From positions 1 through 64,000 of the forward strand of contig DAIDHW010000004.1 of assembly GCA_027451865.1 (NCBI GenBank): a stretch of 64,000 nucleotides of DNA, in the 5' to 3' direction. The notes beneath the pieces are model-generated. The model was not told where the DNA came from. It was given only the letters and a program-made list of their open reading frames with translations, and did no database searches. The translations under genes and the position numbers were made by a program. Position 1 is the stretch's first letter; each line of letters starts with the position of its first letter. Source of the stretch: Leptolyngbyaceae cyanobacterium clean351. Lineage in GTDB: Bacteria; Cyanobacteriota; Cyanobacteriia; DAIDHW01. This document shows positions 44,304-45,528 of this stretch, piece by piece.

Positions 44304-45029
44304 TCACCCAAAAAAAGGATGGGAGAGGACCAAATCTAAAACTCGTTGGTAGGCTGTTGATACGTTCCCTAGGTCCTGACGAAAGCGGTCCTTATCGAGA
44401 ATGCGCTCTTGGGGGTCTGCTTGGGTTTGGTCCCAGAGGCGGCAAGTGTCGGGACTAATCTCATCCCCTAGTACTAGAGCGCCGGCAGCATCACAACCGA
44501 ACTCTAGCTTAAAGTCCACCAGGGTCACCCCGCAGGCCTGGAAAAACTGGCCCAAAATCTCATTTACCTGCAATGCCAACTTGTAAATTTGGTCTACCTG
44601 GTCAAGCCTAGCTAAATTCAGCAGCTGTAGGCGGTCTATAGTTAACAAAGGGTCTCCCAGGGCGTCATTCTTATAGTAGAAGTCCACCAGAGGTGGGTTG
44701 AGGGGAGTAGCTAAGGGCAAGCCAGTCTGGGCGCAAAGACTGCCAGCCGCCAGGTTACGTACCACCACCTCTAGAGGGATAATTTTCAGAGCCCGCACCC
44801 GGATTTCCCGGGGCGAGAGCTGGTCAATAAAGTGGTTAGGGATTCCTAGTTCAGCTAAGTATTGAAACAAACGTGCCGAAATTGTGCAGTTAATGGCTCC
44901 CTTGTCTGCAATCTGACCCCGTTTTTGAGCGTTGAAGGCAGTAGCATCATCCTTGAAGTGGGCTATGAGTATCTCTGGATCCGGGCTCTGGTAGATTATC
45001 TTCGCTTTGCCTTCGTAGAGTTTGATCAT
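44304..45029 (-). CDS. purC: SAICAR synthetase PurC
   Basis: Joins CAIR and aspartate in purine synthesis. 241 aa from the ATG at 45029, which gives the usual M-I-K-L-Y-E-G-K-A-K start. The D-D-A-T-A-F-N loop, N-x-I-S and E-I-S-P-D-T-C-R-L-W segment are conserved. Upstream in-frame start codons up to 45071 fall inside the leader hairpins. It heads the operon with bamA and the lpx genes, the usual cyanobacterial order. purK of the same pathway is at the left end of the window. Confidence 0.95.
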   Translation of the reverse strand: MIKLYEGKAKIIYQSPDPEILIAHFKDDATAFNAQKRGQIADKGAINCTISARLFQYLAELGIPNHFIDQLSPREIRVRALKIIPLEVVVRNLAAGSLCAQTGLPLATPLNPPLVDFYYKNDALGDPLLTIDRLQLLNLARLDQVDQIYKLALQVNEILGQFFQACGVTLVDFKLEFGCDAAGALVLGDEISPDTCRLWDQTQADPQERILDKDRFRQDLGNVSTAYQRVLDLVLSHPFFG

Positions 45030-45080
45030 TGAGGCGACTAAGGGAGGTAACTGCAGATCTAAAGTTAGCAAGAAAACTAT

Positions 45081-45125
45081 CCGCTCCCGTCCCTAGCAAC
45101 TAGGAGTTTCTGGGGGCAGGAGCGG
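45081..45125 (-). terminator. Hairpin before purC, terminator- or attenuator-like
   Basis: On the minus strand CCGCTCC (45119-45125 on the plus map) pairs with GGAGCGG (45081-45087), and the stem continues with a T-G and further pairs. After the stem comes A-T-A-G-T-T-T-T-C, a short T-rich run, 50 bases before the purC start. The position suits attenuation of purC. The T-run is weak, so an mRNA-stabilising 5' hairpin is an alternative. Confidence 0.4.
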
Positions 45126-45210
45126 TCTAGTAGAGTCTTCAAGTCAGAACCCAACTACCGGAAGGGACTCCCAGTCAGCCTCAGTCCTGAGGAAATTTGC
45201 CATCCGGAGA

Positions 45211-45294
45211 CTAAATGCCTTCCGAGAGAGCAGCTCCGGCGCGTAGCCAGTTATCTCCAACTTGATGACTCAGGCATTTACTACTGTTTTGCAT
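45211..45294 (-). CDS. Small leader ORF upstream of purC, 27 aa
   Basis: The ATG at 45294 follows an exceptional SD, A-A-G-G-A-G-G-T-G, with eight bases from GGAGG to the start; most genes here have weak or no SD. The peptide begins M-Q-N-S-S-K-C-L-S-H and ends A-L-S-E-G-I. Its 3' coding part and stop form one arm of a 9-bp inverted repeat whose other arm is early in the ORF. It may be a leader peptide for attenuation, a real small protein, or part of a structured RNA. I do not recognise it. Confidence 0.45.
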   Translation of the reverse strand: MQNSSKCLSHQVGDNWLRAGAALSEGI

Positions 45295-45372
45295 GAGCAT
45301 CACCTCCTTAGGGTTTTTTCCCGAGGATCAAGATAACATAAATAATGTCCTGATTGTCAGGGACTTTTCGCC

Positions 45373-45528
45373 ATGACTGCTCCTCTCGAAACCCCTCCTG
45401 ACCCTAGCTACGTCAAACTCGCCATGCGCCACATGGTGAAACGGCGGGGCTTGTCCTTGCTGCACTTTACTTTGACGGCAACCGCCCTGATTGCCCTGCT
45501 GGTGGGACTAGCCTACTTGACTCGCTAG
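45373..45528 (+). CDS. DUF3285 small membrane protein, 51 aa
   Basis: ATG at 45373. The peptide has a conserved P-S-Y-V-K-L-A-M-R-H-M-V block, basic residues, and one C-terminal hydrophobic helix ending in G-L-A-Y-L-T-R. This matches the cyanobacterial DUF3285 family as I recall it, which commonly lies upstream of ybeY. The function is unknown. The topology predicted is a positive N-terminus inside with a single C-terminal anchor. Confidence 0.82.
   Translation: MTAPLETPPDPSYVKLAMRHMVKRRGLSLLHFTLTATALIALLVGLAYLTR

Follow-up and report, generated by a model that had tools for sequence, protein, structure and literature searches.

The window analysed here is a 64,000-nucleotide stretch of contig DAIDHW010000004.1 from Leptolyngbyaceae cyanobacterium clean351, and its minus strand carries purC at 44307..45029 (PF01259, E 1.4e-83), as a preliminary description of this DNA had already recognized. 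Upstream of purC, on the same strand, we predict an RNA gene of approximately 250 nt (about 45324-45071, 254 nt), with its ends placed from a -10-like box and a terminator. This box, TATCTT (45330..45335, inside TATGTTATCTTG), belongs to the RNA’s own putative promoter and is followed by an extended Shine-Dalgarno sequence, AAGGAGGTGAT (45299..45309), and by a short ORF, MQNSSKCLSHQVGDNWLRAGAALSEGI (45211..45294), which comprises 27 codons from the ATG at 45294 to a TAG stop. A predicted start-codon hairpin, P0 (45268..45298), pairs 45298-45294 with 45272-45268. The ORF also contains the 5′ strand of a long helix, P1-P3 (45228..45271), made up of segments 45271-45264, 45263-45256, 45251-45245, 45240-45234 and 45230-45228; its 3′ strand, GAGUCCCUUCCGGUAGUUGGGUUCUGACUUGAAGACUC, lies at 45133..45170. 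Both strands show covariation, and between them is a variable domain (45171..45222) whose length and sequence differ among species. The element closes with a 3′ hairpin and T-run (45070..45131; 45131-45115 paired with 45091-45076, T-run at 45076-45070), a predicted Rho-independent terminator, and purC lies outside it as a neighbor. The RNA as a whole folds better than its shuffled versions (z = -3.06), with 1 of 200 shuffles equally good.

The comparison rests on 139 rows, 123 of them distinct, with some loci representing the same genome reached twice. The motif AGGAGGTGATGC[CT]CATG served to pick all of the 109 first loci, namely the window and L032-L140 except L057; for L061-L140, a pattern reaching AGTAGTAWA was used as well. 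Because of this motif-based choice, the invariance of the Shine-Dalgarno sequence and ATG in our first alignment, A1, exists by construction; the frame, the stop and the pairing of the long helix were not fixed by the selection. A1 holds 31 sequences aligned with MAFFT and not fitted to any structure, and the structure was derived from A1 itself. It took 31 of 32 representatives, leaving out L090, which has a very long variable domain; L077 and L094, whose 3′ ends were not found by the expression (L094 is cut by its contig), had been dropped before the representatives were chosen. The covariance model R1 was built from the 31 A1 sequences, which thus match it by construction. A second alignment, A4, comprises 88 chosen sources fitted to the model structure. 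Across A1 and the rows extended upstream, the elements follow the same 5′ to 3′ order: -10-like box, extended Shine-Dalgarno sequence, ORF, variable domain, conserved 3′ half, and terminator hairpin with T-run.

At a threshold of E ≤ 0.01, R1 found a match in 294 of 388 sampled genomes of the class, with a best E of 2.7e-71 and a single copy in each listed genome except G038, which has two. Among the class genomes with no R1 match, the 20 listed include eight of family f2 and seven of family f16, and there are 74 further ones. A sample of the phylum gave matches in 96 of 292 genomes, of which 95 belong to the same class, the source genome included; a single weak match (E 4.4e-5) was observed in a different class of the same phylum (G440, C14:104395-104502). 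On the window, itself one of the 31 source sequences of the model, R1 covers 45316-45070 with 187.9 bits. Similarly, blastn with 45372-45040 as the query detected relatives in other cyanobacteria from the Shine-Dalgarno sequence onward, with identities of up to 87% and E values down to 8.4e-21; the accompanying tally of 388/388 carries no weight, because the limit was E ≤ 10. A renewed search of 30 genomes, selected for their diverged hits, recovered a match in every one of them, and in the weakest copies (L230, L232, L233 and L234) little is left beyond the Shine-Dalgarno sequence and the start of the ORF. One diverged candidate, L231 (1501-1673 in G125, E 4.7e-8), starts with GTG; it comes from a 2.4 Mb genome in family f2, whose other listed members mostly have no match, and it may be a picocyanobacterial form.

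The box upstream of the RNA is recurrent: TGTG[TC]TA occurs approximately 20-90 nt before the Shine-Dalgarno sequence in 97 of the 139 rows, duplicates included, against a shuffled mean of 2.4 and a maximum of 6. The window, which counts as one of these rows, is without TGTG and has TATG in its place. A sigma-70 scan found no promoter here, since it demands a -35 box. Many families commonly have a ACCGTTTAGG-like stretch approximately 10-15 nt before the Shine-Dalgarno sequence (for instance L033, L209, L225 and others), which is missing in the window. On the opposite side of the promoter region, positions 45373-45528 of the plus strand encode a 51-aa DUF3285 protein (PF11688, E 3.6e-23), whose gene is oriented away from the RNA gene and starts approximately 40 nt from the -10-like box; the two promoters may therefore overlap.

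At the other end, the hairpin and T-rich run previously noticed before purC are indeed present, as part of the same structured RNA: the hairpin is followed by TTTTCTT and lies approximately 40 nt before the purC ATG at 45029. In A1, 96.3% of its cells are paired, both sides change in 8 of 15 pairs, and the ACCGC/GCGGATAG stem is kept in sequence as well as in pairing. A simple terminator scan did not list the 45131-45076 hairpin, probably owing to the interruption of its stem and to the ATAG between stem and T-run.

The unusual strength of the Shine-Dalgarno sequence, which the preliminary description had pointed out, is borne out by scoring. AAGGAGG is present at 45309-45303 of the minus strand, 8 nt 5′ of the ATG at 45294, within an 11-nt match to what we take to be the complement of the 16S 3′ end; the best match before the first ATG of 48 mechanically defined ORFs of at least 150 aa in the window is 7 nt, and 38 of them reach 3-4 nt. 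Among the 30 diverged model hits, GGAGG is retained in all 30, and the start codon is ATG in 27, GTG in two and absent in one. The 27-codon ORF described earlier (45294-45211) is likewise real and conserved in relatives. It occurs in 122 of 123 distinct 5′ sequences, in 93 of which the ATG exists by construction, and the exception, L234, has no start. Of these 122 ORFs, 112 have 23 codons (100) or 24 codons (12); six have 17 codons, and lengths of 26, 27 (the window), 28 and 30 codons occur once each. All three stops are used (TAA 68, TAG 49, TGA 5). The window reaches 27 codons instead of the usual 23 because it has TCG where most relatives stop. Even among the diverged ORFs, 20 of 29 have 23-24 codons, and where diverged copies have gained codons the frame is kept and the usual end is still read. 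In most sequences a stop comes sooner in the other two frames (medians of 10 and 3 codons), which stay open for at least 17 codons in 41 of 122 (first) and 1 of 122 (second). The 17-codon ORFs of L210, L219 and L222, all of family f26, stop just before helix P3.

The encoded peptides provide a more ambiguous picture. An N-terminal D/E-S-S-K is common among them, and a serine codon has changed from AGT to TCT or TCG in L208 and L233, the latter a weak hit. The conserved C-terminus, RLCAGAVL, coincides with the strands of helix P2-P3. Mean column entropy over codons 2-23 is 0.76, 0.82 and 0.80 bits at positions 1, 2 and 3, respectively, in a set of 55 rows, none of them found by the pattern, and thus no third-position excess is detected there. 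A Pfam search with a typed, consensus-like peptide gave no match, and a table of small Synechocystis proteins, with its lower size limit of 26 aa, is indecisive for this peptide. Our comparison suggests that the ORF is probably translated, and that selection acts more plainly on frame and stop than on the amino acids, given the lack of a third-position excess and the placement of the C-terminus on helix strands.

According to the consensus fold and pair counts, the second half of the ORF, codons 8 to 23, pairs with the 3′ half of the RNA. In A1, both sides change in 23 of 46 pairs, which amounts to 128 changed cells against a shuffled mean of 35.6 and 16-21 in slid controls; in the structure-fitted A4, the same holds for 39 of 46 pairs and 443 cells against 97.8 in shuffled data. 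The helix joining the ORF to the 3′ half is thus supported by comparison. A single-copy RNA in most of the sampled class genomes, with ORF and helix overlaid, points to strong selection on this RNA. Of the 9-bp arms that had been proposed for the ORF, the repeat itself exists (45280-45272 with 45220-45212, enclosing a 51-nt loop), but it occurs in only 1 of the 31 aligned sequences, that of the window, and is therefore not a conserved structure. At least one perfect 9-bp repeat appears in 28 of 2000 mononucleotide shuffles of the 120-nt stretch. The four-codon extension of the window ORF (45225-45211) holds most of the repeat’s 3′ arm, and the 5′ arm lies in codons 5-8.

Bases are shared between P0 (GCCCA:UGGGU) and the outer pairs of the long helix (GGGUC:GACCC), so the RNA could switch between the two. 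P0 is paired in all 31 A1 rows, where its 5′ strand is nearly fixed by construction, and has at least four of its five pairs in 82 of 88 A4 rows and in 19 of 25 diverged rows. In thermodynamic predictions, which take no account of kinetics and in which the two helices exclude each other by geometry, the median pair probability of P0 is 0.98 in the 5′ prefix and 0.02 in the full RNA; P0 is favored (above 0.5) in 27 of 31 prefixes and 2 of 31 full RNAs, and the rival long helix is predicted in 27 of 31 full RNAs. Triple co-changes are consistent with this sharing of bases: the window carries C21T, G47A and C211T (A1 numbering), which fit both helices, and L229 preserves both through changes in columns 20, 48 and 210. 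The switch would nevertheless not be universal, as P0 falls below four of five pairs in 6 of 88 rows (L206, L217, L218, L220, L225 and L228) and the outer pairs of the long helix do so in three (L205, L222 and L226). For the window, the predicted full fold contains a weak P3 (probability 0.18) and a Shine-Dalgarno sequence that is mostly paired (accessibility 0.17), which argues against an open start site in this copy.

The preliminary description had interpreted the whole region as a regulated leader of a purC-bamA-lpx operon, an interpretation that the comparison does not sustain. R1 finds the RNA in most of the sampled class genomes, next to other genes elsewhere, and a covariance search of purC loci detected it at none of 29 others at E ≤ 1; on this ground we rejected a purC leader. 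Where both are on one contig, the RNA and purC are widely separated, by about 21 kb in G017, by 32 kb in G007 and by 2.6 Mb in G024, to give three examples. Among the 109 oriented loci (window included), 78 have an upstream ORF, which is PsbD in 23 and NadC-like in 12. Pterin-4a-carbinolamine dehydratase or an OprB porin is among the first two downstream ORFs in 75 of 109 loci, and of the 105 loci with a downstream ORF, the first one shares the strand of the RNA in 90 and has the opposite strand in 15. These neighbor families were checked on one representative each; the upstream representative was called Photo_RC, which we take to be the D2 protein (PsbD), and the Nostoc locus tags alr4548-4550 are presumably linked to psbD and the porin, although the literature on these tags yielded a single paper, which concerns Yfr1. 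The varying neighbors, together with the other purC loci, indicate a preferred neighborhood of which purC is no part. On this comparative evidence, the RNA is a gene of its own rather than a control region of purC.

We next consider which RNA this is. A threshold search of Rfam with the window stretch and 20 related loci found no family, the purine riboswitch included, in agreement with the earlier remark that no such riboswitch could be recognized. When the search was made permissive, for the window stretch and one strong relative, all matches were at chance level (E 1.8 to 6.5) and far under the thresholds, and Rfam 15 has no family matching the element; a purine riboswitch or another Rfam family was therefore rejected. 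A plasmid-borne element and a phage-borne element were also rejected, the plasmid search and the phage search (exact pattern only) being without a match. 6S RNA (RF00013) is a stand-alone RNA with a long rod-like fold, and the element resembles it in both respects; however, the genome’s own 6S RNA is at C1:996998-997183 and RF00013 has no match at the locus, so this candidate was rejected as well. Leader-peptide attenuators combine a short ORF behind a strong Shine-Dalgarno sequence with mutually exclusive helices and a terminator. The element has all of these, but here the downstream gene varies and no helix is exclusive with the terminator. Like the dual-function SgrS/SgrT as described in PMC5126843, it carries, in one RNA, a short ORF along with another conserved region, with the difference that here the ORF itself is one strand of the conserved helix.

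The closest correspondence is with ncl0160, a transcript described in the ncl0160 text of PMC4734099 from Synechocystis sp. PCC 6803 with a Nostoc homologue. According to that text, its 83 homologues contain a stretch of 23-25 codons that invariably follows a ribosome-binding site and is likely translated, with mostly ATG and a few GTG starts and with 47 TAA, 34 TAG and 2 TGA stops; it is widespread in cyanobacteria, marine picocyanobacteria being outside the survey. Our element agrees in its ribosome-binding site and ORF length (23-24 codons in most copies, as against 27 in the window), in its mostly ATG and occasional GTG starts, in the similar proportions of all three stops, and in its presence in most sampled cyanobacteria. 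Since every feature that can be compared with this text agrees, the element very probably belongs to the ncl0160 family, as a likeness by description and not by sequence: a pattern search in named genomes gave at least 114 stretches, and the 80 listed and used, all cyanobacterial by title, come from records other than the ncl0160 strains (Synechocystis and Nostoc). The window copy differs in lacking the usual stop. The supplement of PMC4734099 holds a predicted fold of one strain; a covarying helix that joins the ORF to the 3′ half, a P0/P1 switch or a copy beside purC does not appear in its ncl0160 text. A literature search for the name ncl0160 returned PMC4734099 alone, and no function of this RNA was found in the searched literature. 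The element is thus an RNA under strong selection that has neither a function in that literature nor a family in Rfam 15, and our covariance model would allow annotation pipelines to name it.

Comparison across these genomes supports a promoter-like box, a Shine-Dalgarno sequence, an ORF whose frame and stop are preserved, a long helix and a terminator, all of them independent of purC; from these we infer a transcription start, translation, a switch and a role for the freed 3′ half. As the best explanation, although a tentative one, we propose a stand-alone cyanobacterial small-RNA gene whose product would be a translation-gated switch. As long as the RNA consists of its 5′ part alone, P0 would hold the start codon; synthesis of the 3′ half would then let the longer helix, using the same GGGU, displace P0 and free the start site. 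A ribosome on the ORF would then strip the long helix and bare the 3′ strand UUCCUYCCGGCAGUC..., making it available for interaction with another RNA, with a protein or with a nuclease, so that translating the ORF would be more important than the peptide produced. The broader idea that a near-universal cyanobacterial RNA senses translation in this way, through a helix swap followed by ribosomal unlocking of a trans-acting 3′ half, is doubtful. If it is true, frame and stop would be kept because the path of the ribosome, rather than the peptide, is the signal. The six distinct copies of only 17 codons speak against such a gate, as a ribosome translating them would leave part of the helix uncovered. 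Through the alignment, the covariance model and the specified base pairs, the mechanism can be tested directly in laboratory cyanobacteria.

Two other readings are possible without being probable. The RNA may be a small mRNA whose purpose is the 23-aa peptide, with a structure that only protects or regulates that mRNA; the conservation of the frame with all three stops, the common D/E-S-S-K and the two serine codon swaps would fit, whereas codons 2-23 show no third-position excess, the RLCAGAVL end coincides with helix strands and is not reached in the six shortest distinct copies, and the consensus-like peptide has no Pfam match. It may also be an ordinary trans-acting sRNA, or a protein-binding RNA, in which the ORF is a by-product that sets level or lifetime through being translated. 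A stand-alone gene with a terminator, whose stem ACCGC/GCGGATAG is conserved beyond the needs of pairing, is in line with this, as are the numerous examples of sRNAs encoding small proteins mentioned in PMC5521070, but a frame and stop kept in nearly every distinct sequence exceed what a by-product needs. We prefer the translation-gated switch to both because a kept stop and unrelaxed codons fit a ribosome whose path matters.

Control of the adjacent gene is less probable. A cis-acting leader that attenuates the downstream gene, purC here and the dehydratase or porin elsewhere, is unlikely: the predominantly same-strand downstream ORFs, the recurrence of dehydratase and porin genes, and the short distance to purC in the window speak for it, but the downstream genes differ, some are on the other strand, and the remaining purC loci are without the RNA. 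In addition, P0 and P1 share no bases with the terminator stem and no helix excluding the terminator was seen, so that the switching helices stand clear of it and no antiterminator is apparent. A purC-specific or purine-sensing leader is very improbable indeed, having its position in its favor and the Rfam results and the other purC loci against it. For a stand-alone gene placed as in the window, transcription may, in this one organism, read through into purC approximately 40 nt past the terminator.
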